NCBI RefSeq assembly: GCF_000971155.1
Contig: NZ_BBLX01000006.1
Span: forward strand, 1-64,000
Source: Demequina maris
GTDB lineage: Bacteria > Actinomycetota > Actinomycetes > Actinomycetales > Demequinaceae
Reading direction: 5' to 3'
Length of the DNA: 64,000 nucleotides
Of this stretch, positions 43,085 to 57,732 are shown one piece after another (the first letter of the stretch is position 1; the number at the start of each line of letters is the position of its first letter). A program made the position numbers and the translations under genes. Below the pieces are notes generated by a model. It had not been told where the DNA came from, made no database searches, and was given only the letters and a program-made list of their open reading frames with translations.

Positions 43085-43666
43085 CTAGCTGACCGCGGGC
43101 AGCGTGGCGACGAGGCGCTCGGCCGCCTCCCGCGCGTGCGCGGTCCCGGTCGCGGCCGATGCGATGTCGCTGAGGAAGACGTGGTGGAGCGCGATGCCCA
43201 CGACCCCGTACGCCACGGCGGCGCAATCCTCCGCGGTGGCGGCGGGGTGCTCCGCCGCGAGCAGCTCCGCGAGGAGCGCGTGCGTGCTCGTGTAGGCGTC
43301 GGTGAGGAGCGCCGCGAGCGCGGCGTCAGCCCGCGCGGCCTCGACGAAGCCGAGCACCACCGCGTTCTCCTGCCCCGGGCTCGCGAACTCCGGTCCGAAC
43401 AGGTGGTCCAGCGCGCCCGCGACGTCCGTCGTGCCGGCAGGAAGGATCGAGTCGCGCTCGGCGCCGTCGTGGTAGAAGTGCCGCGCGCTCTCGCGCAGCA
43501 GCGTCTCGCGGTTGCCCGCGAAGTGCCGCACGTGGCCGCGCGACATGCCGGCGGTCTCGGCGATGCGGTCGAGGCTCGCGCCCGTGATGCCGCGCTCGGC
43601 GATCGTGCGGATCGTCGCGTCGATGATCTGGCGGGTGCGTTCCTCGGCGACCGATGGTCGGGCCAT
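43085..43666 (-). CDS. TetR family regulator
   Basis: A 193-aa repressor: IIDATIRTIAERGITGASLDRIAETAGMSRGHVRHFAGNRETLL is the HTH. The C-terminal part is a helical ligand domain (TAEDCAAVAYGVVGIALHHVFLSDIAS). ATG 43666 is chosen because GAGGAGG lies 5-6 bases upstream; a start at 43687 lacks one. It is divergent from the CocE-like hydrolase, with a TAGTC-N6-GACTA dyad over the shared promoter, so it probably represses the hydrolase and itself. Confidence 0.9.
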   Translation of the reverse strand: MARPSVAEERTRQIIDATIRTIAERGITGASLDRIAETAGMSRGHVRHFAGNRETLLRESARHFYHDGAERDSILPAGTTDVAGALDHLFGPEFASPGQENAVVLGFVEAARADAALAALLTDAYTSTHALLAELLAAEHPAATAEDCAAVAYGVVGIALHHVFLSDIASAATGTAHAREAAERLVATLPAVS

Positions 43667-43716
43667 GGGGTACCTCCTCGCAGGCACGATAGCGCACCTC
43701 GCATGAATTCTTTGTC

Positions 43717-43732
43717 TAGTCGGCCTTGACTA
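43717..43732. promoter_or_regulatory. Candidate TetR operator
   Basis: TAGTC-GGCCTT-GACTA inverted repeat. The right arm overlaps the -35 (TTGACT, 43726-43731) of the CocE-like gene. Confidence 0.55.
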
Positions 43733-43755: not shown

Positions 43756-43785
43756 GGCCGCCAATCGACCGACCGAGGAGGACCC

Positions 43786-45465
43786 GTGGTGGAGATCGTG
43801 CGTGAGGGGCCCGCTCCCGTCAGCCCGCTCGCCCGTGAGCACCGCGTGCGCATGCGTGACGGCGTGCGTCTCGCGACCGACGTCTACGTCCCGGGAGGGC
43901 GCGACGTCGCGGCCGAGGTGCCGGGGGATACCGTGCTCATCCGCCTGCCCTACGACAAGAGCGGCAGGTACACCTTCATCCCGCTGGTCGCGGAGTACCT
44001 GATGGCGCGCGGCTACCGCGTCGTCGCCCAGGACGTGCGCGGCAAGTTCCGCTCCGAGGGCGACGCGCTGCTGTTCGTCAACGAGGCCGACGACGGCTAC
44101 GACACCCTCGACTGGATCGTGCAGCAGCCCTGGTCGAACGGGCGCGTGGCGATGTGGGGGGACAGCTACTACGGCTACACGCAGTGGGCCGCCGCGTCCG
44201 CCGAGCATCCGGCGCTGAAGGCGATCGCGCCCCGCGTCACCGGCACGCTGCTCGGCGAGCCCGTGTCCGCGCCCGCTGGTGAGCGGGTGCGCGACGTGGA
44301 GTGGTCGATCACCTACATGTATCCGCTCACGTACTTCCATTCGCAGGACGTCTTCCACTGGGAGCTCGACCCCGCGCGGCGCCCGTTCGCCGCTCAGGCC
44401 GAGGAGGCGCTCGAGCAGCTCGGATCGCGTTCGCCCTCGTACGACCAGTGGTACCCCCGTCCGGTCCGCCTGCCGCGCTTCCCGCGAGGCGGCCCGTTCG
44501 AGGGGCGCCCCGTCCCGACGCTCCACACGATCGGGTGGTGGGACAACTGCGCGCCCCTGTCGTGGGAGGACGTCGCGCAGATCGAGCGGCGCCCGGCATG
44601 GTCGCTGCACCACTTCCTGCGCATCGAGTCCATGGATCACGAGTCGTACTACCTGGACGACCCCGACGAGGACCGCGTGGAGGAGCGCACGGATGTCCAG
44701 CTGCGCGCGCAGCTGCCGCGCATGCTGGACCCGGCGCTCGAGTTCTTCGAGGTGTTCGTGCGGGGCAACGGCGCACCCTCCGACATCCCACGCGTCGCGT
44801 GGAGCCTCGCGGGAACGCCCGGCATGCGCGCGTGCGCGACGTGGCCCCCGGCCGGCATCACGACGGTCACGTGGCACGCTGCGCCCGACGGGTCGCTGGT
44901 GACGGAGGTCCCGACGTCGCGCGAGGAGCGCACGTGGGTCCACGACCCAGGCGACCTGGTGCCGTCGAGCGCCGACAACCCGTTCGCGTTCCTGCTCGAG
45001 CGCCCCGACGAGGGCGCGCTCGCGGTCCGCGACGATGTGCAGGCGTTCGAGTCGGCCCCGTTGCCCGACGACGTTGACCTCGCCGGACCCGCGACCGCGG
45101 AGGCCGAAATCGCGTCCGACGGGCCGGTGATGGACGTCTTCGTGCGTCTCTTGGACGTCGCGCCCGACGGGGCTGCGTTCCGCATCGCCCGCGGTCAGGT
45201 GCAGGTCGCGCGAGCCGACGAGGGTGCGCGCGTACGGATCGACCTCGGGCAGGTCGGCTACCGCATGCGCGCCGGTCATCGGCTGCGCGTCCACGTGTCG
45301 AGCAGCGACTTCCCCGAGTACCTGCCGCAGCCCGGCACCGGCGAGGAGCCGTGGGGTGCGAGCGGCGCCCGGCGCAACCTCCAGCGCCTCGTGGTCGGTG
45401 GGGGCGAGGGGCTACGCGTGTCCCTGACGGTGCTGCCAGGCGGCCGCGAGGAGGTGCCGTCGTGA
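43786..45465 (+). CDS. CocE/NonD family hydrolase (X-Pro dipeptidyl-peptidase S15 fold)
   Basis: A 559-aa alpha/beta hydrolase that cleaves ester or amide bonds. N-terminal RMRDGVRLATDVYVP and VVAQDVRGKFRSEG are CocE marks. The nucleophile S127 lies in WGDSYYGYTQW. The C-terminal jelly-roll domain includes ATAEAEIASDGPVMDVFVRLLDVAPDG and LRVHVSSSDFPEY. Starts at GTG 43786 with CGAGGAGG upstream. It overlaps a DUF3237 gene by GTGA, so both are one unit. Substrate unknown. Confidence 0.9.
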   Translation: MVEIVREGPAPVSPLAREHRVRMRDGVRLATDVYVPGGRDVAAEVPGDTVLIRLPYDKSGRYTFIPLVAEYLMARGYRVVAQDVRGKFRSEGDALLFVNEADDGYDTLDWIVQQPWSNGRVAMWGDSYYGYTQWAAASAEHPALKAIAPRVTGTLLGEPVSAPAGERVRDVEWSITYMYPLTYFHSQDVFHWELDPARRPFAAQAEEALEQLGSRSPSYDQWYPRPVRLPRFPRGGPFEGRPVPTLHTIGWWDNCAPLSWEDVAQIERRPAWSLHHFLRIESMDHESYYLDDPDEDRVEERTDVQLRAQLPRMLDPALEFFEVFVRGNGAPSDIPRVAWSLAGTPGMRACATWPPAGITTVTWHAAPDGSLVTEVPTSREERTWVHDPGDLVPSSADNPFAFLLERPDEGALAVRDDVQAFESAPLPDDVDLAGPATAEAEIASDGPVMDVFVRLLDVAPDGAAFRIARGQVQVARADEGARVRIDLGQVGYRMRAGHRLRVHVSSSDFPEYLPQPGTGEEPWGASGARRNLQRLVVGGGEGLRVSLTVLPGGREEVPS

Positions 45466-45917
45466 GGGAGCCCGTGCTCGAGCCCGCGTTCGAGATCCGC
45501 GTGGACATCGACCCGCACCTGCGCATCGGTCGCGGGGCCGATGAGGAGCTCACGTTCACGCCCGTCGTGGGCGGCACGGTCAGCGGCCCGCTCCTCCGGG
45601 GCGTCGTGCTGCCCGGCGGGGGAGACTGGGCCGTCGAGCGCTCAGGGACGGCCCAGCTCGAGGCGCGGTACCTGCTCCGCGCGGACGACGGCGCCGTCAT
45701 CGACATCCTCAACCGGGGCTACTACCGGGCCTCGGCCGAGGTCGAGGAGCGGCTCGCCGCCGGCGAGGACGTGCCGGAGTCCGAGTACTACTTCCGTACC
45801 GCGCCGGTGTTCCAGACCGATGCGCCGGCCCACCGTTGGCTCGCGGAGCACCAGTTCATCGGCTTGGCCCGCGACGAGGCGGGCCAGGTGTGCGTCAGGG
45901 TGTTCGTGGTGCGATGA
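45462..45917 (+). CDS. DUF3237 family protein (copy 1)
   Basis: A 151-aa beta-barrel-like protein of unknown function. Family marks are TFTPVVGGTVSGPLLRGVVLPGGGDWAVE, then LEARYLLRADDGAVIDILNRGYYRAS and YYFRTAPVFQTDAPAHRWLAEHQFIGLA. GTG start overlapping the hydrolase stop. A paralogue at 53251 accompanies an amidase. The recurrent pairing with a hydrolase suggests action on the released product, but no catalytic motif is known to me. Confidence 0.88.
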   Translation: MREPVLEPAFEIRVDIDPHLRIGRGADEELTFTPVVGGTVSGPLLRGVVLPGGGDWAVERSGTAQLEARYLLRADDGAVIDILNRGYYRASAEVEERLAAGEDVPESEYYFRTAPVFQTDAPAHRWLAEHQFIGLARDEAGQVCVRVFVVR

Positions 45918-45934
45918 CCTGGACCGGGCGGGGC

Positions 45935-46507
45935 TCAGGCCCGAGGCTGCGCCTCGATCGTGGCGTGGATCACCTCGCGCACGTGCGCGTCCGTCCAGCG
46001 CTCCGGGTCCTCGGTGCTCGCGATGTACGCCCCGCGGATCAGGAGGTAGGCGAGGTCCGCGACCTCCTCCGGTGCCGCGAAGCCGGACTCTGCGGCCGCG
46101 GAGCAGAGGAGCTCCTCGAAGCTGGCCGACTCGCGCCGCAGGGCCTCCGCCATGACGGGCTCGATCTCGGCGTTCGCGACGATCTCCAGGATCAGCGTCC
46201 GCAGGACGGGGTCGTCGGTGGTCGAGGTCAGCGCCCAGTCGACGACCGCACGGAGGCGGTCGCGGGCGTCCAGGCCGGCGAGCGTCGCGGCCAGCTCCTC
46301 CTGCCAGCGGTCCCGACCCTGGTCGAGCGCGTTGAGGATCAGCGCGGCGCGCGAGGGCAGGTAGTTCGTCACGAGGGTCGTCGAGCCGCCGAGCTCGCGG
46401 GCCACGGAACGGATCGTGACGGCGTGCGTGCCCGACGATCGCGCGACGCGGATGGTCGCGGCGGCGATGTCGGCCAGGCGCTGGGTCGGGTCGACATCGC
46501 GAGGCAT
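45935..46507 (-). CDS. TetR family regulator
   Basis: A 190-aa repressor with the HTH AATIRVARSSGTHAVTIRSVARELGGSTTLVTNYLPSRAAL, an atypical recognition helix ending in VTNYLPS, and a helical ligand domain. It is divergent from the Dpp-type transporter operon with a perfect dyad between (46553-46567) and convergent with DUF3237 copy 1. Probably controls uptake of the substrate handled by the amidase. Confidence 0.9.
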   Translation of the reverse strand: MPRDVDPTQRLADIAAATIRVARSSGTHAVTIRSVARELGGSTTLVTNYLPSRAALILNALDQGRDRWQEELAATLAGLDARDRLRAVVDWALTSTTDDPVLRTLILEIVANAEIEPVMAEALRRESASFEELLCSAAAESGFAAPEEVADLAYLLIRGAYIASTEDPERWTDAHVREVIHATIEAQPRA

Positions 46508-46552
46508 GCGACACAGCGTATCCAGCGTCGTAACACAAATGCAACATTGATG

Positions 46553-46567
46553 TACAACACTGTTGTA
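46553..46567. promoter_or_regulatory. Candidate TetR operator upstream of the Dpp-type operon
   Basis: TACAACA-C-TGTTGTA, a perfect 15-bp dyad. It overlaps a possible -10 TATTAA (46566-46571). The AT-richness stands out from the surroundings. Confidence 0.65.
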
Positions 46568-46638
46568 TTAACGTGGAACCAGCCGCCCCGGCGACCTGCC
46601 GGAGCGCGACCCCATGGGACACCCCGAAAGGACCCGAC

Positions 46639-48285
46639 ATGAAGATCCCCGGCATCACCGCAGCGGTGGCGGCAGGCACGGTCGTCGTGCTTGCCTCGGG
46701 CTGCACGGCCCGCGACGCGGCCGCGCCGTCCGCGTCGCCCGCAGAGTCCTCCGCGCCGCTCGAGCTCGTCGCGTCCCTCCCGGCGGCGTCGACCGACGTC
46801 GACTCCGTGACCTGGGGGCTCGTCGAGGGCGAGCCGCGGTCGCTCGTCCCCGGTGCCGACTACAACTTCGTCGCCCCGAACCTGTGCGACAGCCTTCTCC
46901 AGGTCCAGCCGGACTTCTCGATCGCGCCCGGCATCGCCGAGTCGGCGGACTGGGCGGACCCCGTCACGTTCGTGATCGACCTGCGCGACGGCGTGACGTT
47001 CTGGGACGGCGCGCCCGTCACGACCGACGACGTCATCTACGGCCTCGAGCGCCACCGCCAGGACGTGACGTCGGCGTACTACGGCGCGTTCGTGCTCGTC
47101 TCGTCGATCGAGGCGACGGGGAACCGCCAGGTGACGGTGCGCTTCAACGCCCCGGACTCCACCTTCCGAGACGCGCTCGCCAGCGGTGCCGGCGCGGTCC
47201 TCAGCAAGGCCTTCGGGGAGGAGGCAGGCGATGCGCTCGGCACCTCCGGCACGGGACTGCTGTGCGCCGGTCCCTACGAGCTCGAGTCGTGGACGCCCGG
47301 CAAGGAGATCGTCACGATCGCGAACGAGGACTACTGGGGCGGCGCGCCGCATGTGAAGACGCTCACCTACCGGTTCGTGCCCGACGGCACCACGCTGACG
47401 AACGCCCTGCTGGAGGGCGAGATCGACGGCGCGTTCAACGTCCCGCCCGCGAGCCGGGAGGCGTTCGAGCAGTCCGACACCGGACGCCTGGTCGTCGGTC
47501 CCTCCACCGCATCGCTGTCGTTCGGTCCGACCAAGGCGACCGGGGCGGGCGCGAACCCGCAGATCCGGCAGGCCCTCAGCATGGCCATCGACCGCGAGCA
47601 GTACATCGCGACCGTCCTCAACGGACTCGGCACGGCGCAGAGCACCTTCGTCGCGCCGTTCTCGTGGGCCGGCATGGAGGCCGCGGACATCTACCAGGCG
47701 GGCTACGACGCTCTCGCTGCGCCGTCCGTCGACCTTGACGCCGCCCGCGCGCTCGTCGAGGAGTCCGGCGAGGACACCTCGGTGCCGCTCGTGATCGCGA
47801 TCCCCGCGGGCAGCAAGGAGCTCTCGCAGACGGCCGCGATCGTGCAGAGCGCGGCCGAGCAGATCGGGCTCACCGTCGAGATCGACGAGCGCCAGCCGGC
47901 GGACTTCGCGGCCATCTTCCTCGCCGATCCCGGACCCCGGGAGTCGATCGACCTCGTCGCCACCACGGGTTACACCGAGACCCCCGGCGTGCTCGCCTAC
48001 CCGCAGCTGTTCCTCCTGCCCGCGGAGCTCGGCGGGATCTTCAACTGGAGCGGCTACGCCGACGAGCAGGTCGTCGGCGCGCTGCAGGCCGCCCGCACGT
48101 CGCCCGACGCGACCGCCGCGGCCGAGGCCTACGTGACCGCGCAGGAGATCTTCGCCCCCGACATGCTGCAGGTGACGCTCGCCGGGGCTTACCACACCAC
48201 GTTCCTCAACGACGCGCTGACGGGAGCGACCACGTCGGTCGCGGCCTACGCGAGCCCCTGGGCGCTTCACCTGGGCGGCGAGTGA
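46639..48285 (+). CDS. Peptide/nickel-type ABC transporter substrate-binding lipoprotein
   Basis: A 548-aa family 5 binding protein. The lipobox is LASGC (C22). SIAPGIAESADWADPVTFVIDLRDGVTFWDGAPVTTDDVIYGLER is the family core, and SMAIDREQYIATVLNGLG and YLQ-like late elements follow. Ribosome site AAAGGA. It begins a six-gene unit: two permeases, a fused ATPase, an amidase and DUF3237. The ligand is probably an amide, peptide-like or otherwise modified small molecule that the amidase then cleaves. Confidence 0.92.
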   Translation: MKIPGITAAVAAGTVVVLASGCTARDAAAPSASPAESSAPLELVASLPAASTDVDSVTWGLVEGEPRSLVPGADYNFVAPNLCDSLLQVQPDFSIAPGIAESADWADPVTFVIDLRDGVTFWDGAPVTTDDVIYGLERHRQDVTSAYYGAFVLVSSIEATGNRQVTVRFNAPDSTFRDALASGAGAVLSKAFGEEAGDALGTSGTGLLCAGPYELESWTPGKEIVTIANEDYWGGAPHVKTLTYRFVPDGTTLTNALLEGEIDGAFNVPPASREAFEQSDTGRLVVGPSTASLSFGPTKATGAGANPQIRQALSMAIDREQYIATVLNGLGTAQSTFVAPFSWAGMEAADIYQAGYDALAAPSVDLDAARALVEESGEDTSVPLVIAIPAGSKELSQTAAIVQSAAEQIGLTVEIDERQPADFAAIFLADPGPRESIDLVATTGYTETPGVLAYPQLFLLPAELGGIFNWSGYADEQVVGALQAARTSPDATAAAEAYVTAQEIFAPDMLQVTLAGAYHTTFLNDALTGATTSVAAYASPWALHLGGE

Positions 48286-48316
48286 TCCGCACGACGCCGG
48301 ACGGGAGGAGGGGACG

Positions 48317-49276
48317 ATGACCACGCATGTGATCCGGCAGCTCGCCGGCAAGCTCGGCGGACTGCTGCTGACCCTCCTCCTGGCCAGCATCGTGATCTTC
48401 TTCGCCGTGGCGCTCACCCCCGGCGACCCGGTCACGGCCCTCGCCGGAGGCGTCCGGCCCACACCCGAGATGATCGAGGCGATCCGCGCGGAGCACCACC
48501 TCGACGACCCGGTCTGGATGCAGTACCTGCGCTGGGTCGGCGGGGTGCTGCACGGCGACCTCGGCGACTCGTACGTCTACGGGACGTCGGTGGCGTCGCT
48601 CATCGCGCCACGCGTCGGGATCAGCGCGCTGCTCGTCGGGTACACGGTCGTCCTCATCACGATCGTGGGCATCGGATCCGGCATCCTCGCCGCGGTCCGA
48701 CGCCGGCGCACCGAGAAGGCCATCCTGCTGGGCACCTCGCTCGGTGTCGCGATGCCCACGTTCGTCGTCGCGATCCTGCTGATCTGGGTGTTCGGCCGGG
48801 TGCTCGGGTGGTTCCCCGTGTACGGCGCAGGCGACGGCTTCGTCGACCACCTGTACCACCTGACGCTCCCCGCCGTCTCGCTCTCGGTCCTCTACATCGC
48901 CTACATGAGCCGCATTACCCGCGGCGCGATCGTGGCGCAGCAGGACGCGGAGCACGTCGACACCGCGCGCGTGCGAGGGCTGCCACGCGCGCACGTGTTC
49001 CGCCGTCACGTCCTCCTCAACGCGTCGCCGCCGATCCTGTCGGTCTCGGGCGCGACCATCGCGGGCCTGATCGCCGTCTCCGCCGTCGCGGAGCAGGCCT
49101 TCGGCATCAGCGGGATCGGATCCCTCCTCACGGAGGCGGCGGCACGCAAGGACCTGCCCGTGGTCCAGGTGCTCTCGCTGCTGCTCGTCGCGGTCTTCGT
49201 CGTGCTCAACGCCGTCGTCGACGTCGCGGTGGCGATCATCGACCCCGACACCGTCAAGAGAAGGAGCAACGCATGA
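48317..49276 (+). CDS. Dipeptide/oligopeptide-type ABC transporter permease (DppB-like)
   Basis: A 319-aa permease: N-terminal helix, then TPGDPVTALAGG, VWMQYLRWVGGVLHGDLGDSYVYG and the coupling motif EHVDTARVRGLPRAHVFRRHVLLNA, all DppB-like. Ribosome site GGGAGGAGG. Ends with an ATGA overlap to the next permease. Confidence 0.93.
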   Translation: MTTHVIRQLAGKLGGLLLTLLLASIVIFFAVALTPGDPVTALAGGVRPTPEMIEAIRAEHHLDDPVWMQYLRWVGGVLHGDLGDSYVYGTSVASLIAPRVGISALLVGYTVVLITIVGIGSGILAAVRRRRTEKAILLGTSLGVAMPTFVVAILLIWVFGRVLGWFPVYGAGDGFVDHLYHLTLPAVSLSVLYIAYMSRITRGAIVAQQDAEHVDTARVRGLPRAHVFRRHVLLNASPPILSVSGATIAGLIAVSAVAEQAFGISGIGSLLTEAAARKDLPVVQVLSLLLVAVFVVLNAVVDVAVAIIDPDTVKRRSNA

Positions 49277-50136
49277 GCATCGCTCAGCTGACGCGCGGGC
49301 GCGTGCCGGCGCCGGCGCGCCGGGCGGCCGGCCGCGACCCGCTCGTCGTCGCCGCCGCGGTCGTCGCGAGCGCCATCGCCGTCATCGCCGTCGCGGGGCC
49401 CCTGCTCGCCCCGTACGACCCGAACCAGCTCTACGTCGGCGAGGTCTCCGCGCCCGTCAGCCTCGATCACCCGTTCGGCACGGACGACCTGGGCCGCGAC
49501 GTCCTCTCCCGCGTCCTCGCCGGCGCCGGCGCGAGCGTCGTGGGCCCCGTCATCGTGGTGCTGCTGTCGACCCTCGTCGGCACCGCGGTGGCCGTGCTGT
49601 CCGCATGGTTCGGTGGCGTGGTCGACGGCGTCTCGACCCGGCTGGTCGAGGTGATCTTCGCGATCCCCGGACTGGTGCTGGCGGTGCTCGCCGTCGCGAT
49701 GTTCGGCAAGGGGCTCGTCGCTCCCGTCGTGGCGCTGTCGATCGCGTACATGCCGATCGTGTCGCGGCTCGTCCGCGCGGGCGCGCGCACCGAGCTGGGC
49801 AAGCCGTACATCGCGGCCCTGCGCATCCAGGGCGTCGGCTCGCCGACGATCTGCGTGCGGCACCTGCTGCCCGCCCTGCTGCCGTCGATCCTCGCGCAGG
49901 CGACGCTCGGCTTCGGCTACGCCATGCTCGACCTCGCCGCGATCTCGTTCCTCGGCCTCGGCGCGCAGCCGCCCGCCTCGGACTGGGGCGTGATGATCGC
50001 CGGCGGCCAGCCCGCGCTCCTGAACGGAGCGCCCGAGCAGTCCATGTTCCCCGCGCTGCTCGTCGTCGTGACGGTGCTCAGCGTCAACATCCTCGGGGCG
50101 CGCGTGACGTCCTGGGCGGAAGGCGCCGACCGATGA
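49273..50136 (+). CDS. Dipeptide/oligopeptide-type ABC transporter permease (DppC-like)
   Basis: A 287-aa DppC-like permease. LLAPYDPNQLYVGEVSAPVSLDHPFGTDDLGRDVLSRVLAGA is the family mark. The coupling loop is GKPYIAALRIQGVGSPTICVRHLLPALLP, and LDLAAISFLGLGAQPPASDWGVMI ends the core. Overlaps both neighbours by 4 bases. Confidence 0.93.
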   Translation: MSIAQLTRGRVPAPARRAAGRDPLVVAAAVVASAIAVIAVAGPLLAPYDPNQLYVGEVSAPVSLDHPFGTDDLGRDVLSRVLAGAGASVVGPVIVVLLSTLVGTAVAVLSAWFGGVVDGVSTRLVEVIFAIPGLVLAVLAVAMFGKGLVAPVVALSIAYMPIVSRLVRAGARTELGKPYIAALRIQGVGSPTICVRHLLPALLPSILAQATLGFGYAMLDLAAISFLGLGAQPPASDWGVMIAGGQPALLNGAPEQSMFPALLVVVTVLSVNILGARVTSWAEGADR

Positions 50137-51821
50137 CCCGCACCGTCCTGGAGCTCGAGCAGCTCGCCGTCGCCACCCCCGCCGGCCGGACGCTCGTGCA
50201 CGACTGCACGCTCGCGGTCCGGGCGGGGGAGACCCTCGGGCTCGTCGGCGAGTCCGGATCGGGCAAGACGCTGTCGACCCGCGCGGTCGCGGGACTGCTG
50301 CCGTCCGGGTTCCGCTCGACCGGCGCGATCCGCATCGACGGCCACGACATCGCGTCGCTGCCTGCGCGGGACCTCCGCGACCTGCGCGCCCGCCGCCTCG
50401 GCATGGTCTTCCAGACACCCCGCGCCCACCTCAACCCGCTGCGCTCCATCGGCGACTTCATGACCGAGGCGCTGGTGGCGGTCGCCGGCGAGAAGCCGGA
50501 TGCCGCGCATCGGCGCGCCGTCGACCTGCTCGCGGAGGTGGGGATCCGCGACCCCGAGCGCGTGATGCGGCAACGCCCCGGCGAGCTGTCGGGCGGCCTC
50601 CTGCAGCGCGTCATGATCGCCGCCACCCTGTCGATGGACCCGCCGATCCTGCTCGCCGACGAGATCACCACGGCGCTCGACGTCACCACCCAGGAGGAGG
50701 TCATGGCGGTGATCGCCGACCTGCGTCGTCACCGGGATCTCGCCATGTTGTTCATCACCCACGACCTCGCGCTCGCGGGCGCCGTGTGCGACCGTGTCGC
50801 GGTGATGAAGGACGGGCGCACGGTCGAGACCTTGGCCGCGGCGACCATGCGCGAGGACGCCGCGGATCCGTACACGCGGAGGCTCCTCTCCGCCGCGCTG
50901 CCACCCGAGCGGGACGATGCGGCGGCGCCCCGGCGCGAGGACCCGGTGCTCGTCGTCGAGGGGCTGCGGAAGACCTTCCAGGTGCGTTCGCCACGCGGCC
51001 GCCGTGAGCGCTTCGTGGCGGTGGACGACGTGTCCTTCTCGCTCGCCGCGGGCGGCGCGCTCGGGATCGTCGGCGAGTCCGGATCCGGCAAGTCGACCAC
51101 CGCGCGCATCATCTGCGGTCTCGAGACCGCCGATGCGGGCACGGTCGCGGTCAAGGGCGAGCCCTGGACCCGTCCCGCGCGGGGCGCGCCCGCGCGTCGC
51201 GCACGCGCCGGAGTCGTCCAGATGGTGTTCCAGGACCCGTACCAGTCGCTCGACCCGCGTCAGACAGTGCGGGCGTGCCTCGCCGAGGCGGTCGCGGTGC
51301 ATCGCCGCCTCGCCCCGCGCCGGGAGATCGATCGACGCGTCGCCGAGCTGCTCGCCGCGGTCCGCCTCGACGCCGATCTCGCCGACGCGCGGCCGCGGGC
51401 GCTGTCCGGGGGGCAGCGGCAACGGGTCGCGATCGCTCGCGCCCTCGCGGCCGAGCCGGAGATCCTGGTGCTCGACGAGGCGGTGTCGGCGCTCGACGTC
51501 ACCACCCAGGTGGAGATCCTCACGCTCCTCGACACGATCCGGCGGGAGACGGGCGTCGCGCTGCTGATGATCTCCCACGACCTCACCACCGTGCGCCGGT
51601 TGTGCGACCGCGTCGCGGTCATGCACAGCGGCCGCATCCTCGAGCAGGGCACGATCGCCGAGGTGCTCGATGCCCCGTCGGCGGACTACACCCGCGCCCT
51701 TCTCGACTCGATCCCACGTCCCGGGTGGACGCCCCGCAGGCGCCTCCCCCCACGCACCAGCCACCAGCCGGCCGCCGCCCAGGCGGCTGCGCGCATCGTC
51801 ACCACAGGAGGACATCCATGA
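50133..51821 (+). CDS. Fused double ABC ATPase (DppD-DppF type)
   Basis: One 562-aa chain with two nucleotide-binding domains. The first has GESGSGKT at 39-46, LSGGLLQRVMIAATL and ILLADEITTALD. The second has GESGSGKS at 314-321, LSGGQRQRVAIARAL and ILVLDEAVSALD. Dipeptide importers usually encode these as two proteins, so this is the fused form seen in some actinobacteria. The basic tail (TPRRRLPPRTSHQP) lies outside the domains. Overlaps the amidase by ATGA. Confidence 0.92.
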   Translation: MTRTVLELEQLAVATPAGRTLVHDCTLAVRAGETLGLVGESGSGKTLSTRAVAGLLPSGFRSTGAIRIDGHDIASLPARDLRDLRARRLGMVFQTPRAHLNPLRSIGDFMTEALVAVAGEKPDAAHRRAVDLLAEVGIRDPERVMRQRPGELSGGLLQRVMIAATLSMDPPILLADEITTALDVTTQEEVMAVIADLRRHRDLAMLFITHDLALAGAVCDRVAVMKDGRTVETLAAATMREDAADPYTRRLLSAALPPERDDAAAPRREDPVLVVEGLRKTFQVRSPRGRRERFVAVDDVSFSLAAGGALGIVGESGSGKSTTARIICGLETADAGTVAVKGEPWTRPARGAPARRARAGVVQMVFQDPYQSLDPRQTVRACLAEAVAVHRRLAPRREIDRRVAELLAAVRLDADLADARPRALSGGQRQRVAIARALAAEPEILVLDEAVSALDVTTQVEILTLLDTIRRETGVALLMISHDLTTVRRLCDRVAVMHSGRILEQGTIAEVLDAPSADYTRALLDSIPRPGWTPRRRLPPRTSHQPAAAQAAARIVTTGGHP

Positions 51822-53248
51822 CCGCACGACAGCCCTGGCAGATGAGCATGCGCGAGCTCGCGGCGGCGATCCGTGCGGGCTGGCTGACCGCGCGCGGAGC
51901 CGTCGACGCGCACCTGGAGCGCATCGATGAGGTCAACCCGCGCGTGAACGCCCTCACGGTCGTCTTCCACGACCGGGCACGGGCGCTCGCCGACGAGGTC
52001 GACCGCGCGCTCGCGGCGGGTCGCGATCCGGGGCCGCTCGCGGGCGTGCCCTTCACGGTCAAGGAGAACATCGACCTCACCTGGTCGGCGTCCACGAGCG
52101 GCTGGCCATTCCTCGCGAACGCCGTGCCCGCGGAGGACGCGACCATGGTCGCCCGCCTGCTCGCCGCCGGCGCGATCCCGATCGGTCGCGGCAACATGCC
52201 CGACTTCGGGCTGCGCTGGGACACGGACAACGACCTTTTCGGGCGCACGCTCAACCCGTGGGACCCCGCTCGAGTTCCCGGCGGGTCGAGCGGAGGCGAC
52301 GCCGTCGCTGTCGCGACCGGCATGACGCCGCTGGGTCTCGGGAACGATTACGGCGGCTCGCTGCGGTTGCCCGCGTATGCGGCGGGCGTGTGCGCGCTCC
52401 GCCCCACCGCGGGCCGGATCCCCGCACCCACGGCATCCGGCGACGAGCCGGTGACGCTGACGCTGCAGCACTTCGCCGTCAACGGCCCGATCGCGCGGAC
52501 GGTGGACGACCTCGACACCGCCTTCGCCCTCATGCACGGCGCGGATGGCCGTGACCCGCTCGTGAGCACCCTGCCGCACCCCGCCGGCTACGACGGGCCG
52601 CGGCGCGCGGCCGTGGTCCGTGACCCGCTCGGTTGGGGCATCGACCCGCAGGTGGGGGAGGCCGTGGACCGCGCGGCCGCCGCGCTCACGGCGGCCGGCT
52701 GGGAGGTCGAGCACGTCGAGCCGCCGCTGCTCGAGGAGGCGGCGGTGCTGTGGCGGCGCCTGTCGAGCGCGGAGATGGTGGGCGCGTTCCAGCCGGGTGG
52801 GCTGCCCGCGCCGCTGAGCGCGGGCTCGACGACGTACTTCCTCGACAACGCCGAGGAGGTCGAGCCGTTCACGGGTGCGGACGACTACGCGATGGCATGG
52901 GCGCGCCGTGTCGCGATCGCCGCCGCGTGGGCACGCTTCCAGGCGGACCATCCCGTGATCGTCGGGCCGGTGTCCGCGCGCCGGATGCCGCGCATCGGCT
53001 TCGATCTCGAGGGTCCCGCCGCGACCACCGAGCTGTGGCGCGCGCATCGTCTGCTCGTCGCCGTCAACTTCCTGGGCCTGCCGTCGGTCGCGCTCCCGAC
53101 GGGCCTGGACGAGGACGGCCTCCCGACGGGGGTGCAGCTGATCGGCCCGCGCGACGGCGACCACGTCGCGCTCGCTGCGGGCCGGGCCGTCGAGGCCGCG
53201 CTCGGCCACATCGCACCGCTCGCGGCGCGCGACGTCGTGGCGGGCTGA
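51818..53248 (+). CDS. Amidase, amidase-signature family
   Basis: A 476-aa Ser-cisSer-Lys hydrolase. K82 is in GVPFTVKENID, the cis-serine region is GGSSGGDAVAVATG (S157-S158), and the nucleophile is S181 in NDYGGSLRLPAY. Acts on amide bonds of small molecules. ATGA overlap with the ATPase gene means uptake and cleavage are tightly coupled. It is followed 2 bases later by DUF3237 copy 2. GatA is excluded by context, as no gatB/gatC is nearby, and by length and sequence. Confidence 0.92.
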   Translation: MTARQPWQMSMRELAAAIRAGWLTARGAVDAHLERIDEVNPRVNALTVVFHDRARALADEVDRALAAGRDPGPLAGVPFTVKENIDLTWSASTSGWPFLANAVPAEDATMVARLLAAGAIPIGRGNMPDFGLRWDTDNDLFGRTLNPWDPARVPGGSSGGDAVAVATGMTPLGLGNDYGGSLRLPAYAAGVCALRPTAGRIPAPTASGDEPVTLTLQHFAVNGPIARTVDDLDTAFALMHGADGRDPLVSTLPHPAGYDGPRRAAVVRDPLGWGIDPQVGEAVDRAAAALTAAGWEVEHVEPPLLEEAAVLWRRLSSAEMVGAFQPGGLPAPLSAGSTTYFLDNAEEVEPFTGADDYAMAWARRVAIAAAWARFQADHPVIVGPVSARRMPRIGFDLEGPAATTELWRAHRLLVAVNFLGLPSVALPTGLDEDGLPTGVQLIGPRDGDHVALAAGRAVEAALGHIAPLAARDVVAG

Positions 53249-53250
53249 CG

Positions 53251-53709
53251 ATGCCGGTGCGTCCGAGTCTCGAGCACGTCTTCGACCTGCGCGTCGACGT
53301 CGGGGAGCCCGTCCGGGTCGGGCGGAGTGCGTCGGAGGACCTCAACGTCACGCCGATCCTGGGCGGCACGGTCGTCGGGCCCCGCCTGCGCGGGACGGTG
53401 CTGCCGATCGGCGCCGACTGGTGGGTGACGCGGGGGGCGACCACGCAGCTCGACGCGCGCTACGTGCTCAGGGCCGACGACGGCGCGGCGATCGACGTGG
53501 TCAACCGCGGTTACTGGCATGCCGACGCCGATCTCGAGCGGCGGCTGCGCGCGGGGGAGCCCGGCGCGGAGGACGAGCTCTACTACCGGACCGCGTTCGT
53601 GTTCCAGACCGGCGCCGAGGCGCACCGGTGGCTGACGGAGGCGCAGTTCGTGGGGTACGCGCGTCCCGAGCCGTGCCGTGTGGTGATCGCCGTCCACCGC
53701 GTGGCCTGA
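53251..53709 (+). CDS. DUF3237 family protein (copy 2)
   Basis: A 152-aa protein with the same pattern as the copy at 45462: VTPILGGTVVGPRLRGTVLPIGADWWV, LDARYVLRADDGAAIDVVNRGYWHAD, LYYRTAFVFQTGAEAHRWLTEAQFVGYA. Two bases after the amidase stop; last gene of the Dpp-type operon. A strong hairpin follows. The two copies differ at many positions, so the duplication is not recent. Confidence 0.88.
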   Translation: MPVRPSLEHVFDLRVDVGEPVRVGRSASEDLNVTPILGGTVVGPRLRGTVLPIGADWWVTRGATTQLDARYVLRADDGAAIDVVNRGYWHADADLERRLRAGEPGAEDELYYRTAFVFQTGAEAHRWLTEAQFVGYARPEPCRVVIAVHRVA

Positions 53710-53749: not shown

Positions 53750-55300
53750 TCAGCTGGGCGCCTGCTCCGTCGCGGGCAGCGCGGGGAAGCGCTCGCGCAG
53801 CTCGATCTTGCGGACCTTGCCGCTCGCGGTGCGCGGGAGGTCGTCGACCAGGATCGCCGCGCGCGGCAGCTTGTACTTCGCGACGCGGCCGCGCACATGC
53901 CCGATGACGTCGTCGGGGGTGACCTGGGCGCCCTCGTGCAGCGCCACGATCGCGAGCGGCACCTCGCCCCAGCGGTCGTCGGGGACGCCGATGACCGCGA
54001 CCGAGCGCACCTCGGGCATCTCCATCACGAGCTGCTCGATCTCGGCGGGGTACACGTTCTCGCCGCCGGAGATGATCATGTCCTTGAGCCTGTCGGTGAC
54101 GGTGAGGTAGCCCTCCTCGTCGAGCAGGCCGACGTCGCCGGTGCGCAGCCAGTCGCCGTCGCGCGCCTCGGCCGTCGCCTCGGGACGGCGCCAGTACTCG
54201 CGGATGACGTTCGGCCCGCTGATCTGGATCTCGCCGGCCTCGCCGGGCGGCAGCACGTCGCCCTCGGGGCCCACGATGCGCACGTCGGTGAAGAAGTGCG
54301 CGAGGCCCGAGGTGCCCACGTGGTCGCGCGCCTTGCTCACCGGCAGCGACGTCGCGCCGGGCGAGGCCTCGGTCATGCCGTAGCCGCTCGAGAACGCGAG
54401 CCCGCGGGCCTCGTAGGCCTCGATCACGCGCAGCGGCATCGCGGATCCTCCGCAGGTGAGCTTGCGGATGCTCGACAGGTCCGTCGACTCCCAGGCGGGA
54501 TGCTCGGACAGGAACTGGAAGGTGGTGGGGACTCCCGACAGGCTGGTGACGCCGTGCTCCTCGACCGCGCGCAGGACGTCACCGCCGTCGAAGCGCTCGT
54601 GCAGGACCACGGCGCCGCCCTTGAGCAGCGTCGGCAGCGCCCCCATGCTGAGCGCCGCGACGTGGAACATCGGCGACATCATCATCGCGACCTCGTCGCG
54701 GGTGACGTCGTAGTCGACGATAGCGTTGAGGACGTTCCAGGTGAGGTTGCCGTGGGTGAGCACGGCGCCCTTCGGGCGGCCCGTGGTGCCCGACGTGTAG
54801 AGGATCATCGCGGGGTCCTCGAGGGACACCTCGGCGTCGAGCGTGGACGGCTCCGTCGATGCGATCGCCTCGTCGAGGCTCTCCACGGCCGGCAGGTCCG
54901 CCTCGCCGTCGACCACGAGGCGCTTGCGGATCCCGCTCGACCAGGCTGCCGCGCGCGCGAGGTCGCGCACGGAGTCGTGCGTGACGAGGAACACGGCGCC
55001 GGAATCCTCGATCATGTACTCGAGCTCGCGCGGGGCGAGCCGGGTGTTGAGGGGCACGAAGATCGCGCCGAGAGCCCCGCACGCGAAGAACGTGGTGAGG
55101 AAGTCCGGGTGGTTGTTGCCCAGGTACACCAGCCGGTCGCGCTTGGCGAGCCCCCGGTCGGCGAGCACCCGGGTGAGCCGCGCCACGCGGTCCGCGAACT
55201 CGTCGTAGGTGTACGTGCCGCCGGGCCAGATGAGCGCGGTGTCGCCGGCCGACTTGATGCGCCGCCGGGCGATCCAGTCGCCGAGCCCCTGGTTCTTCAT
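53750..55300 (-). CDS. AMP-dependent acyl-CoA ligase
   Basis: A 516-aa adenylate-forming enzyme that activates a carboxylate with ATP and CoA. Motifs: ILYTSGTTGRPKGAVLTH (phosphate loop), SGYGMTEASPGAT, WLRTGDVGLLDEEGYLTVTDRLKDMIISGGENVYPAEIE, and the C-terminal lysine in RTASGKVRKIEL. Resembles fatty-acid or aryl-acid ligases; the acid cannot be read from sequence alone. Last gene of the SDR-amidohydrolase-MaoC-ligase operon. Confidence 0.93.
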   Translation of the reverse strand: MKNQGLGDWIARRRIKSAGDTALIWPGGTYTYDEFADRVARLTRVLADRGLAKRDRLVYLGNNHPDFLTTFFACGALGAIFVPLNTRLAPRELEYMIEDSGAVFLVTHDSVRDLARAAAWSSGIRKRLVVDGEADLPAVESLDEAIASTEPSTLDAEVSLEDPAMILYTSGTTGRPKGAVLTHGNLTWNVLNAIVDYDVTRDEVAMMMSPMFHVAALSMGALPTLLKGGAVVLHERFDGGDVLRAVEEHGVTSLSGVPTTFQFLSEHPAWESTDLSSIRKLTCGGSAMPLRVIEAYEARGLAFSSGYGMTEASPGATSLPVSKARDHVGTSGLAHFFTDVRIVGPEGDVLPPGEAGEIQISGPNVIREYWRRPEATAEARDGDWLRTGDVGLLDEEGYLTVTDRLKDMIISGGENVYPAEIEQLVMEMPEVRSVAVIGVPDDRWGEVPLAIVALHEGAQVTPDDVIGHVRGRVAKYKLPRAAILVDDLPRTASGKVRKIELRERFPALPATEQAPS

Positions 55301-55344: not shown

Positions 55345-55800
55345 TCAGGCGTAGAAGCGGTAGAGCCCCCGCGCCGCGACCGCGGGCTTGGTGCCGCCCT
55401 CGATCTCGATGGTCTGATCGACCGTGAGCTGGAAGCCGCCGGGGATCTCGGCCACCTCCGCGATCACGGCGCTCATCCTGACCCGCGCACCCACCTGCAC
55501 GGGGGAGATGAAGCGCACCTTGTCCAATCCATAGTTGACCTTGGTGGTGACGCCGTCGACGTCGAGCAGCTCGGTCCAGAACCTGGTGGTGAGCGACAGC
55601 GACAGGAAGCCGTGCGCGATCGGTCCTCCGAACGGGCTCTCCGCACGTGCCCGCTCCGGCTCGACGTGGATCCACTGGTGGTCGTCGACCGCGTCGGCGA
55701 ACAGGTTCACGCGGTCCTGCGTGACCTCGAGCCAGTCGGACCAGCCGAGCTCGCGGCCCACGAGCGACGGGACCTCGGCGTAGGGGACGGTGGTGGTCAT
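55345..55800 (-). CDS. MaoC-like enoyl-CoA hydratase/dehydratase
   Basis: A 151-aa hot-dog-fold hydratase. The catalytic D/H segment is VNLFADAVDDHQWIHVEPERARAESPFGGPIAHGFLSLSL, the MaoC hydratase-2 motif. It hydrates a 2-enoyl-CoA. In context it would follow the acyl-CoA ligase and feed the SDR, giving a beta-oxidation-like sequence for a side chain. Confidence 0.92.
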   Translation of the reverse strand: MTTTVPYAEVPSLVGRELGWSDWLEVTQDRVNLFADAVDDHQWIHVEPERARAESPFGGPIAHGFLSLSLTTRFWTELLDVDGVTTKVNYGLDKVRFISPVQVGARVRMSAVIAEVAEIPGGFQLTVDQTIEIEGGTKPAVAARGLYRFYA

Positions 55801-55828: not shown

Positions 55829-56713
55829 TCACGCGCCGAGCCCGAGCAGACGGACGGCGTTGTCCTTGAGGATCGCGGGCAGCCTCTCCGGCTTGAGCGC
55901 GGTCTGGCCGATGTCCTCGAGCCAGCGGTCGGGGGTGAGCAGGGGGAAGTCGGTGCCGAACAGCACGCGGTCCTTGAGGTACGAGTTCGCGGCGCGGACC
56001 AGCTGCTCGGGGAAGTACCGGGGGCCCCAGCCGGAGAGGTCGATCCAGGTGCGGTGCTTGTGCGTGGCCACCGCGAGCGCCTCGTCCTGCCATGGCACGC
56101 TCGGATGGGCCATGACGATGTCCAGCTCGGGGAAGTCGGCCGCGACGCCGTCCAGCAGCATGGGGTTGGACAGCCCGAGCCGCAGGCCGCGTCCGCCCGG
56201 CAGCCCGGCGCCGATCCCGGTCTGGCCGGTGTGGAACAGCGCCGGCACGCCGGCGTCCTGGATCGCCGCGTACATGGGGTACCAGCGCTCGTCCGAAGGA
56301 TCGAAGCCCTGCACCGTCGGATGCAGCTTGAAGCCGCGCACGCCGTGGTCCTCGACGAGGCGCGCGATGCGCTCGACCGCGTCGGGACGATGCGGGTCGA
56401 CCGACCCGAACGGGATGAGGACGTCGGCGTGGTCGGCCGCCTGCGACGCGATCTCGGCGCTGTCGAGGGTGGGATGACCGAGCTGGGTCTCCGCGTCGAC
56501 GGTGAACACCACCGCGGCCATGCGGCGCTCGCGGTAGTGCGAGGCGATCGCCGCGAGCTCGGGCCGCGGGCCGTCCGTCCGGAAGTAGCGCGAGGCGGCC
56601 TCGACGAGGTCGGGCGGCAGGGACGCGTGCCCATGATCGTCCACCTCGATGTGCACGTGCACGTCGATGGCTTCGATCGCCGCGAGGTCGATCGCCGGCT
56701 CGTAGCGGGCCAT
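55829..56713 (-). CDS. Amidohydrolase family 2 protein (ACMSD/gamma-resorcylate decarboxylase-like)
   Basis: A 294-aa metal-dependent TIM barrel. HxH-type motif DVHVHIE near the N-terminus, FKLHPTVQGF, ALFHTGQTG, VMAHPSVPWQ and the aspartate in LFGTDFPLLTP. This family decarboxylates or hydrolyses aromatic and cyclic acids. It lies 11 bases after the SDR and 28 before MaoC. Reaction on a ring acid or a beta-keto acid is plausible but not settled. Confidence 0.9.
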   Translation of the reverse strand: MARYEPAIDLAAIEAIDVHVHIEVDDHGHASLPPDLVEAASRYFRTDGPRPELAAIASHYRERRMAAVVFTVDAETQLGHPTLDSAEIASQAADHADVLIPFGSVDPHRPDAVERIARLVEDHGVRGFKLHPTVQGFDPSDERWYPMYAAIQDAGVPALFHTGQTGIGAGLPGGRGLRLGLSNPMLLDGVAADFPELDIVMAHPSVPWQDEALAVATHKHRTWIDLSGWGPRYFPEQLVRAANSYLKDRVLFGTDFPLLTPDRWLEDIGQTALKPERLPAILKDNAVRLLGLGA

Positions 56714-56724: not shown

Positions 56725-57669
56725 TCAGGCGCTCGGACGGGGGCGCTGGAGCGCCTCGGGCAACGGCGGGAACGACTCGCCCACCGATTGGAGGCCGCCC
56801 TCCAGCAACGTCGGCAGCTCGTCGGCGAGGGCCTCGTACGACCAGCCGCCCTCGCGATAGCCCGTGACGACGGGCTCCGGGTGCGACCACAGCTGCACGC
56901 GATCGCCGCCGATGCCGATCGCCTGCCCGGAGATCTCCGGCGCGTCGGAGGCGAGGTACGCGATCAGCCCCGCGACGTCGTCGGCGGTGCCGAACCCGAG
57001 GTCGTGGCGGAAGAAGTCGGGCATCGGCTCACCCGCGGCGTCCGCCTCGACGGCGGCCGCGAAGTACGGCACGGTCGCGGTCATCGCGGTCGCGGCCACG
57101 GGGATCACGGCGTTCACCGTGATACCGGCGCGCTTGAGCTCGAGCGCCCACGTGCGCACCATGCCGACGATGCCGGCCTTCGCCGCCGCGTAGTTGGTCT
57201 GGCCGAAGTTGCCGCGCTGGCCGGTGGGGGAGCCGATGCAGATGATCCGGCCCGGGACGCCGTTCTCGCGGAAGTGGGTGGCGGCCGCCCGCACGCACGT
57301 GAAGGTGCCGCGCAGGTGCACGCCGATCACGGTGTCGAAGTCGTCGTCGGTCATCTTCCACAGGACGGTGTCGCGCAGCACGCCCGCGTTGGTGACGAGG
57401 ATGTCGAGCCTCCCGAAGCTCTCGAGCGCAGCGGCGACGAGGGCGTCGGCGGTGGCGGTGGGGCCGACGGGTGCGACGACGGCGACGGCGTTCCCGCCCG
57501 CCCGGGCGATCTGCTCGATGGCCGCGCTCGCGGCCTCCTCGTCGACGTCGTTGACGACGACCGCGGCGCCGTTCCGTGCGAGCTCGAGGGCGTAGGCGAG
57601 GCCGAGGCCGCGCCCGGATCCGGTGACGATCGCGACCTTGCCGGCGAGCGAGGTGTGGTCTGGTGACAT
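56725..57669 (-). CDS. Short-chain dehydrogenase/reductase
   Basis: A 314-aa SDR. The NAD(P) site is VTGSGRGLGLAYALELARNGA, the acidic residue is in VNDVDEE, NAG is in LVTNAGVLRD, the catalytic S is in CIGSPTGQRG and YxxxK is in NYAAAKAGIVG. Similar to 3-hydroxyacyl-CoA dehydrogenases of the peroxisomal multifunctional type, with a C-terminal extension (TGYREGGWSYEALADELPTLLE). First gene of its operon; divergent from a MarR gene. Confidence 0.92.
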   Translation of the reverse strand: MSPDHTSLAGKVAIVTGSGRGLGLAYALELARNGAAVVVNDVDEEAASAAIEQIARAGGNAVAVVAPVGPTATADALVAAALESFGRLDILVTNAGVLRDTVLWKMTDDDFDTVIGVHLRGTFTCVRAAATHFRENGVPGRIICIGSPTGQRGNFGQTNYAAAKAGIVGMVRTWALELKRAGITVNAVIPVAATAMTATVPYFAAAVEADAAGEPMPDFFRHDLGFGTADDVAGLIAYLASDAPEISGQAIGIGGDRVQLWSHPEPVVTGYREGGWSYEALADELPTLLEGGLQSVGESFPPLPEALQRPRPSA

Positions 57670-57719
57670 GCGAGAACTCCCTTGTTCTAGACGTCAGCAC
57701 ATCAGAAGTCGTTGAGAAT

Positions 57720-57732
57720 GTCAATGATTGAC
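57720..57732. promoter_or_regulatory. Candidate MarR operator
   Basis: GTCAAT-G-ATTGAC is a perfect 13-bp dyad overlapping the -35 of marR. Outer AAGTC (57706) and GACTT (57730) arms extend it imperfectly. Confidence 0.6.

Follow-up and report, generated by a model that had tools for sequence, protein, structure and literature searches.

A conserved, probable import-and-cleave gene cluster with two DUF3237 genes beside a cou-type hydroxycinnamate cluster in Demequina maris

The DUF3237 family (PF11578) is still labeled as a protein of unknown function in Pfam. According to excerpts of the papers cited here, a DUF3237 domain is found in PinX, which shares 42% identity with PhcG and 38% with PhcF and was proposed by its authors to decarboxylate lariciresinoate with furan opening (PMC12607616); PhcF and PhcG perform stereoselective decarboxylation of a phenylcoumaran acid together with ring opening (PMC12997858, PMC11323797); and PhnH catalyzes a hydroalkoxylation that yields a cyclic ether, for which a glutamate has been proposed to serve as the acid (PMC8704240). 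Similar excerpts describe the amidohydrolase-superfamily enzyme CouO as performing the last step of the cou pathway in Rhodococcus jostii RHA1. The structures 3fm5 and 5cyv are those of the R. jostii regulator CouR without and with p-coumaroyl-coenzyme A (CoA), respectively (PMC4737184). The CouR operator is described as cATTGA--TCAATg, an inverted repeat whose half-sites are 5 bp apart and of which one copy is located between couN and couR, and residues R36 and R38 of CouR have been mutated in published work. Here we analyze two DUF3237 genes, DUF3237-A and DUF3237-B, of Demequina maris. They are contained in a window of 64,000 nucleotides (contig NZ_BBLX01000006.1, positions 1 to 64,000) and belong to a ten-gene cluster at 43085–53709 that is followed by a cou-type cluster. 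Our searches of open-licence PMC papers listed no description of such a cluster.

An original prediction for this locus placed two DUF3237 genes next to hydrolase genes, one by a GTGA overlap with a CocE-type hydrolase gene and one by a 2-bp spacing from an amidase gene, and gave each unit a divergent TetR gene. All ten genes were present at the predicted positions, and each of these features was confirmed in the sequence. DUF3237-A starts with a GTG inside the CocE stop codon (GTGA, a 4-bp overlap), the amidase and DUF3237-B genes are separated by 2 bp, and the CocE–A and substrate-binding protein (SBP)-to-B units each have their own divergent TetR gene; 4-bp overlaps are also present at OppB/OppC, OppC/OppDF, and OppDF/amidase. 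Both DUF3237 proteins match PF11578 over its full length (139.5 bits for A and 137.4 bits for B; curated cutoff, 24), they are 57% identical to each other, and theirs are the only two DUF3237 genes of the host genome. The CocE protein scored 260.5 bits against TIGR00976 (cutoff, 66.3) and contains the residues that we take to be its catalytic triad (Ser127 of GDSYYG, Asp253, and His285). The amidase likewise contains the residues that we assume to form its Ser-cisSer-Lys set (Lys82, Ser157/158 of GGSS at 155–158, and Ser181), and both hydrolases look intact as judged from their sequences. Profile matches revealed an Opp/Dpp-type ATP-binding cassette (ABC) importer, with a family 5 SBP, two binding-protein-dependent permeases, and D and F ATPases. 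No signal peptide was seen by eye in CocE, the amidase, DUF3237-A, or DUF3237-B. Given that the hydrolases and DUF3237 proteins have no visible signal sequence, cleavage in the cytoplasm after import is likely.

A scan with DUF3237-B yielded 12 loci, 11 of which carry the whole cluster (L062 to L072, hereafter the named relatives). Identity to DUF3237-B was 81% in Demequina mangrovi, 80% in D. gelatinilytica, and 72–80% in Microbacterium, Herbiconiux, Naasia, Microcella, a Microbacteriaceae metagenome-assembled genome, and Arthrobacter; L073 of Leucobacter holds a different DUF3237 protein (33% identity) without the cluster. The order CocE-A followed by SBP-OppB-OppC-OppDF-amidase-B is kept in Demequina as well as in Microbacterium, Herbiconiux, Naasia, Microcella, and Arthrobacter, and members of the Demequinaceae, Microbacteriaceae, and Micrococcaceae share the import-and-cleave unit. 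Horizontal spread of the cluster is hinted at by the fact that identity within the genus is about the same as that across families. DUF3237 genes are rare in the host family, having been detected in 4 of 47 genomes; they were present in 40 of the 396 genomes of the order and in 45 of a phylum sample of 396. Of the four family genomes, G043 lacks a window-type cluster, and its two DUF3237 genes (L076 and L077) occur in other contexts.

The start codon for the 4-bp overlap of CocE and DUF3237-A was found in the window, in all 11 named relatives, and in four of five further syntenic loci (L082, L095, L099, and L100), with the spacing in L096 being –8. Because the overlapping start recurs in syntenic relatives, the coupling of CocE to DUF3237-A is not due to chance. 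The first start of DUF3237-B lies at –4, –1, +1, or +2 bp relative to the amidase gene in the window and the same 11 relatives. The genes of L082, L095, L099, and L100 run as CocE-A-SBP-OppB-OppC-OppDF-B′ in a single direction, the gap between A and SBP is too small for TetR2, and no amidase was found in these four loci, with the B-type gene (B′) directly following the transporter. In L096, the amidase is present and a second DUF3237 gene (B) was not found beside it. Given these four relatives without an amidase and one with an amidase but no B, the amidase is an optional part of the cluster and its coupling to DUF3237-B is secondary.

A tree built from 104 DUF3237 rows placed the A genes and the B genes on opposite sides of one branch (support of 100/98 each). 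Both sets belong to a 35-row clade (98/98) whose only members in neither half are L132 and L087; the B-type genes of L082, L095, L100, and L105 grouped with B (100/96). This topology shows that A and B are sister paralogs that were duplicated inside one cluster. One cluster with a duplicated gene does not represent two independent hydrolase couplings, and the repeated coupling proposed originally was thus not upheld. The proposed import-and-cleave module was retained in part, as a conserved unit with intact-looking hydrolases, but as one unit with an optional amidase rather than two. Only the CocE overlap recurs among other DUF3237 genes: it was also detected in L092 and L094, whose DUF3237 proteins lie far from A and B in the tree, and in L080, whose broken DUF3237 gene was too short for the tree. 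The L080 gene (9786–10223, reverse strand) is split in two by a stop, as a result of either a broken gene or a sequencing error. A second amidase layout, DUF3237-SBP-amidase-OppBCDF, was present in L077, L106, L108, L109, and L110, with the DUF3237 genes belonging to a neighboring clade. Immediately after the cluster of Microbacterium sp. 2FI (L066, 10473–12547), a second CocE gene and a third DUF3237 gene, not of the A or B type, are found in inverted orientation. Across the window and named relatives, each of the 24 A and B genes encodes Gln at position 120 of the DUF3237 alignment. This Gln was dropped as a mark of the hydrolase-coupled clade, with L087 and L135 also having Gln and the B-type genes of L095, L100, and L105 having neither Gln nor Glu.

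The regions upstream of the two units contain operator-like palindromes. Upstream of CocE, TCTAGTC-GGACT-TGACTA is nearly unchanged across eight aligned loci, with the window having GGCCT. Upstream of SBP, TACAAC-N2-TGTT is identical in 12 of 12 aligned loci; its form in the window is TACAACA-C-TGTTGTA, and a mostly conserved TGCAAC stretch, ATGCAACATTG, precedes this putative TetR2 operator. The difference between the two palindromes supports the view that, in loci arranged as in the window, the two TetR proteins act as separate switches.

For a survey of DUF3237 neighborhoods in Actinomycetota, we compared 73 loci (L078 to L150; 78 genes from the order and phylum samples) with 40 random 20-kb stretches from the same genomes, scanning both sets with identical profiles built from window proteins and assigning positions by domain coordinates. 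The 73 loci omit G121 (a partial hit) and weak or broken hits of the phylum sample (G650, G768, and those from G647 down); L081 overlaps with L082, both being on the same contig, some survey contigs are short, and the controls come only from contigs holding a random stretch of 20 kb, with not all survey genomes being represented. An amidase or CocE gene was found within 5 kb of DUF3237 at 14 of 73 loci compared with 6 of 40 controls (Fisher p = 0.39) and within 10 kb at 17 compared with 7 (p = 0.32). Such a survey had been named as the refuting check for the association of DUF3237 with hydrolases, and its outcome was mixed: a general association was not found at either distance, yet a link to CocE remained. 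S15/CocE was the most common family among 67 immediate same-strand neighbors (six, compared with five SBP5, five SnoaL_2, four AMP-binding, four short-chain dehydrogenase/reductase [SDR], and one amidase by Pfam), the six belonging by position to four window-type loci and L092/L094; these counts have no background rate and were derived from 75 neighbors after manual omission of one larger than 1200 amino acids and seven short or doubtful ones. At the genome level, an S15 hit of >100 bits was present in 22 of 40 DUF3237-positive and 10 of 40 DUF3237-negative genomes (p = 0.006), which slightly favors the original prediction. The SnoaL-like neighbors are probably those of L085, L088, L090, and L093 (loci guessed from short open reading frames), and SnoaL presumably belongs to the NTF2 superfamily. 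LdpA and PcfL, enzymes that act on lignin dimers, are described in published excerpts as NTF2-family proteins.

Other families were more common near DUF3237 than in the controls: SDR within 10 kb (30/73 versus 4/40, p = 0.00035), MarR (15/73 versus 1/40, p = 0.0057), MaoC (8/73 versus 0/40, p = 0.026), Amidohydro_2 (10/73 versus 1/40, p = 0.049), and at least three of CoA ligase, MaoC, Amidohydro_2, and SDR together (7/73 versus 0/40, p = 0.042), with these p values being uncorrected for 17 measures at two distances and only that for SDR surviving such a correction. The ten genes that follow position 53709 in the window constitute a cou-type hydroxycinnamate cluster together with aromatic hydroxylase and ring-cleavage genes, and they provide the best clue to the substrate class. 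CoA ligase, MaoC, SDR, and amidohydrolase-superfamily genes are all present by family match at 53750–58217. The best solved relatives of the window MarR protein are the CouR structures 3fm5 (1.8e-26) and 5cyv (2.5e-26), and its LKVR motif aligns with LRVR of CouR, which holds R36 and R38 by chain numbering. The CouR-box-like repeat at 57711–57725 is the best of nine sites with two or fewer mismatches (2.2 expected).

We defined a CouO ortholog as a match of >300 bits with the window amidohydrolase as query, with up to five candidates scored per genome, and assumed that the DUF3237 and CouO counts in the order drew on an identical set of 396 genomes, given that size and handles agree. Such an ortholog was present in 46 of the 396 genomes, comprising 27 of 40 DUF3237-positive and 19 of 356 DUF3237-negative genomes (p = 5e-20, kinship ignored). 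The 27 genomes with both span eight families, and the two genes lie within 25 kb of each other in 14 of them. In Demequinaceae, the ortholog was detected in 11 of 47 genomes, including all four that are DUF3237 positive (p = 0.0019, kinship ignored); the CouO gene of D. mangrovi (G014) is ~20 kb away. At L132, a single locus holds CocE, Opp, SBP, amidase, one DUF3237 gene, and the whole cou set. As a control, an intradiol dioxygenase (>100 bits) was found in 28 of 40 DUF3237-positive and 5 of 40 DUF3237-negative genomes, with the corresponding numbers for CouO in the same genomes being 27 and 1; of the 28 genomes with the intradiol gene, only 1 had it within 25 kb of DUF3237 (two more had it at 25.4 and 27.3 kb). 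DUF3237 in Actinomycetota thus tracks hydroxycinnamate catabolism.

Similar neighborhoods were observed beyond Actinomycetota. A tblastn search with DUF3237-A matched 38 plasmid records, of which we viewed the 18 whose matching region is annotated as a gene, plus one record without annotation. Genes for feruloyl-CoA synthase or p-hydroxycinnamoyl-CoA hydratase/lyase lie near DUF3237 in 5 of the 18 (two closely alike Variovorax records, Croceicoccus, Acinetobacter, and Polymorphobacter), counts that have no background rate, and a tannase/feruloyl esterase gene does so in two records, one of them the same Acinetobacter. A Sagittula stellata plasmid (L194, 1573–9456) has TetR, ABC transporter, amidase, DUF3237, and agmatinase genes in a row; its amidase is 37% identical to that of the window, and this order suggests an amide of the hydroxycinnamoyl-agmatine type. 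PLSDB lists a predicted LRA-2 resistance fragment between the Sagittula amidase and DUF3237 genes. Roseinatronobacter has SBP, DUF3237, GMC oxidoreductase, and Opp genes. No hydroxycinnamate-type gene is shown in ten viewed records (three of Novosphingobium, two of Klebsiella, and one each of Peteryoungia, Roseateles, Pantoea, Rhizobium, and Halostagnicola). One Novosphingobium plasmid has an alpha/beta hydrolase gene just upstream of DUF3237, and another has two DUF3237 genes in tandem.

The original prediction had DUF3237 either act on the product of cleavage or chaperone it. The AlphaFold model of DUF3237-B (predicted local distance difference test score of 88.8) has the beta-barrel fold of the family and matches 3c5o (Z of 23.4; template modeling scores of 0.87–0.91 over four chains) as well as 4pux, 3g7g, PhnH (Z of 17.7), and 9m2y of Aspergillus (Z of 16.2). 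Together with the functions of PhcF, PhcG, PinX, and PhnH, these matches argue that DUF3237 is an enzyme; the characterized DUF3237 proteins are enzymes, not chaperones. A role as a noncatalytic partner in a hydrolase complex, or as a binding protein or chaperone that shields the product, is consistent with a barrel that could bind a ligand and with the overlap of the genes, which we take to be common for interacting proteins. We nevertheless consider such a role highly improbable, given that the DUF3237-type proteins of known function in the published excerpts are enzymes, that no hydrolase gene comes between the transporter and B′ in four loci, and that DUF3237 has many nonhydrolase partners. 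The chaperone part of the original proposal thus received no support, whereas action after a hydrolase fits PhcF, PhcG, and PinX. The known partners of these enzymes make a carboxylate by oxidation, and the hydrolases here would free one. Weaker fold neighbors of the model (Z of 8–10) include allene oxide cyclases, dirigent proteins (AtDIR6 and pterocarpan synthase), and Diels-Alderases; they were dropped as evidence of function, these scores being near the level common for the tool. Phenolic acid decarboxylases were not among the 50 fold-match rows listed.

We consider the chances to be about even that the locus is one catabolic unit for a hydroxycinnamate-derived ester or amide, and we infer its order of steps as follows. 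The Opp-type importer would take up a small ester or amide, or both, of a plant-phenolic acid of this kind; once in the cytoplasm, the ester would be cut by CocE and the amide by the amidase, an optional add-on. The acid so released would pass to DUF3237-A and -B, putative sister beta-barrel enzymes that, like PhcF, PhcG, and PinX, may catalyze decarboxylation or a C–O lyase (ring-opening) reaction on a phenol-conjugated acid. The product may then enter the adjacent CoA-ligase, MaoC hydratase, SDR, and amidohydrolase pathway under control of the CouR-type repressor, followed by the nearby flavin adenine dinucleotide (FAD)–binding monooxygenase and extradiol ring cleavage (59244–63546). The hydroxycinnamate-type substrate class has fair circumstantial support.

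Several observations weigh against this proposal. The genome-level association with CouO partly reflects general aromatic catabolism, given that intradiol dioxygenase is also more common in DUF3237-positive genomes, and all the co-occurrence statistics ignore kinship. CouO hits were only weak (213.8–216.8 bits) in G097, G137, G331, and G386, all of which carry a window-type cluster. Only 3 of 12 loci (the window, L063, and L067), plus L100 and L132, have the cou genes directly adjoining the cluster, and for 9 of the 11 named relatives the 10 kb downstream of B yielded neither a CoA ligase nor a CouO-type gene. At position 120, the Gln of A and B corresponds to Glu in three bacterial PDB chains and to Asp in PhnH, so that the chemistry of the window proteins may differ from that of characterized members. 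RPE65-family (PF03055, lignostilbene) dioxygenases gave no match in the host genome (98.8% complete) and were found in 4 of 396 genomes of the order, including only 1 of the 40 that are DUF3237 positive (G210); a stilbene product like that of PhcF/PhcG would thus have no known exit. We did not adopt a plain pathway from PhcF/PhcG through a stilbene to lignostilbene dioxygenase, with RPE65 being essentially absent. Alternatively, the DUF3237 proteins may open the ring without forming a stilbene, or their substrate may be a monomer.

The weak CouO hits and the nine relatives would also fit a different interpretation, in which the importer, CocE, and amidase handle a nonphenolic ester or amide, such as a short acyl-peptide or xenobiotic, and the cou genes are a separate neighbor. 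Urethanases are among the PDB relatives of the window amidase, and Opp transporters and amidase-signature enzymes are, we assume, often unspecific. The co-occurrence of CouO with DUF3237 and the co-localization of the two, the joining of all parts at L132, and the adjacency of hydroxycinnamate genes to DUF3237 in Proteobacteria render this interpretation doubtful, although it has a real chance of being correct.

Within a phenolic substrate class, A and B might be an enantio-complementary pair, like PhcF and PhcG, for racemic phenylcoumaran (8-5′) acids derived from dehydrodiferulate esters or from lignanamides/hordatines, with ring opening and loss of CO2 giving a stilbene. PhcF and PhcG are described in the published excerpts as two stereospecific decarboxylases of one pathway, homologous to PinX, the window and the named relatives all retain A as well as B, and the Sagittula gene order points to an agmatine amide. 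This pairing is unlikely in view of the near absence of RPE65-family dioxygenases and the single DUF3237 copy of L132, and the hordatine structure on which it draws is one that we assume. A bolder idea, and a slightly more speculative one that we would not bet on, is an undescribed route in Actinomycetota by which hydroxycinnamate dimers in ester or amide form (neolignan amides of the hordatine or grossamide type, or diferulate esters) would be imported and then de-esterified or de-amidated. A duplicated, stereo-complementary DUF3237 pair would open the dihydrofuran ring of the resulting acid and feed the cou pathway without lignostilbene dioxygenase. In its general form, DUF3237 would be the acid-consuming step after whichever enzyme frees or makes a phenylpropanoid carboxylate, be it an esterase, amidase, or GMC oxidase.

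The features of the cluster and of the genes downstream are listed in Table 1. The best intradiol dioxygenase hit in the host genome scored only 36.7 bits, with none being full length, and ring cleavage may be extradiol. Upstream (35595–43013) are genes for an alpha-L-rhamnosidase, a major facilitator superfamily transporter, a LacI regulator, a zinc alcohol dehydrogenase, and an aldo-keto reductase, which could serve plant glycoside use. The alpha-L-rhamnosidase (35595–38375) raises the idea of a flavonoid substrate, which we did not use as support.

Table 1 Genes and operator-like sites of the DUF3237 cluster and the adjoining cou-type region
Feature	Position	Strand or location	Remarks
TetR1 (TetR_N + TetR_C_6)	43085..43687	-	divergent from CocE; likely ATG start at 43666
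Putative TetR1 operator TCTAGTCGGCCTTGACTA (TAGTC-N6-GACTA)	43715..43732		near-invariant in 8 aligned loci
CocE/S15-type hydrolase	43786..45465	+	Peptidase_S15 1.1e-38; TIGR00976
DUF3237-A	45462..45917	+	PF11578 8.8e-41
TetR2 (TetR_C_6)	45935..46507	-	divergent from SBP
Putative TetR2 operator TACAACACTGTTGTA	46553..46567		perfect palindrome in window
SBP family 5 lipoprotein	46642..48285	+	SBP_bac_5 8.6e-62; LASGC lipobox
OppB/DppB-type permease	48317..49276	+	
OppC/DppC-type permease	49273..50136	+	
Fused OppD-OppF ATPase (OppDF)	50133..51821	+	
Amidase-signature hydrolase	51818..53248	+	Amidase PF01425 5.3e-86
DUF3237-B	53251..53709	+	PF11578 4e-40
AMP-forming acyl-CoA ligase (CouL/PhdA-like role)	53750..55300	-	
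MaoC-type hydratase	55345..55800	-	
Amidohydrolase_2 (CouO-like role)	55829..56713	-	
SDR dehydrogenase	56725..57669	-	divergent from MarR
CouR-box-like repeat GTTGAGAATGTCAAT	57711..57725	SDR/MarR gap	1 mismatch to ATTGA-N5-TCAAT
MarR regulator, CouR homolog	57762..58217	+	best PDB hits 3fm5, 5cyv
FAA-hydrolase-family protein	58273..59200 (approximate limits)	-	
FAD-binding monooxygenase	59244..60377	-	
Cyclase-family (PF04199) protein	60399..61463	-	
LysR regulator	61506..62435	+	
Extradiol (catechol 2,3-dioxygenase-like) dioxygenase	62482..63546	-	

Our results tie actinobacterial DUF3237 to hydroxycinnamate breakdown by both co-occurrence and co-localization. In a compact, conserved cluster, the partner hydrolases would show which type of bond is cut first, and DUF3237 is given a testable job. 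If correct, the proposed unit would be a new uptake-and-hydrolysis entry into the plant-phenolic catabolism of Gram-positive bacteria as well as a route to DUF3237 biocatalysts, and it would explain the presence of DUF3237 beside esterases, amidases, and alcohol oxidases alike.

As described in the published excerpts, the PhcF, PhcG, and PinX systems of Sphingobium SYK-6 and Novosphingobium resemble the window cluster in the DUF3237 domain of PinX, to which PhcF and PhcG are homologous, in phenylpropanoid acids as substrates, in a partner enzyme that makes the carboxylate, and in the presence of two copies in SYK-6. They differ in that their carboxylate arises by oxidation (PhcC/D, PinY), whereas the partners in the window are hydrolases, and in that their product passes to a stilbene or butadiene dioxygenase, which the host genome lacks. 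PhnH of Penicillium herquei (6jjs and 6jjt) shares the DUF3237 fold (2.3 Å over 129 residues) but belongs to a fungal biosynthetic pathway, matches only weakly in sequence (6e-06 to B and 0.021 to A), and has Asp where A and B have Gln. The cou cluster of RHA1 and the phd cluster of Corynebacterium glutamicum presumably also include MaoC and SDR genes. These two clusters share with the window a CouR-type MarR regulator, a box in the divergent gap, a CoA ligase, and an amidohydrolase-superfamily enzyme, whereas the excerpts mention no DUF3237, CocE, or amidase for them. The paper on the piperine cluster of Rhodococcus ruber No. 14 (PMC12753220) is not among the open-licence PMC papers that contain the word DUF3237, and its excerpt describes the amide hydrolase PipM as resembling metal-dependent amidohydrolases, not amidase-signature enzymes. 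The likeness of that cluster to the one described here lies in the combination, within one actinomycete cluster, of amide hydrolysis followed by a cou-like beta-oxidation set.

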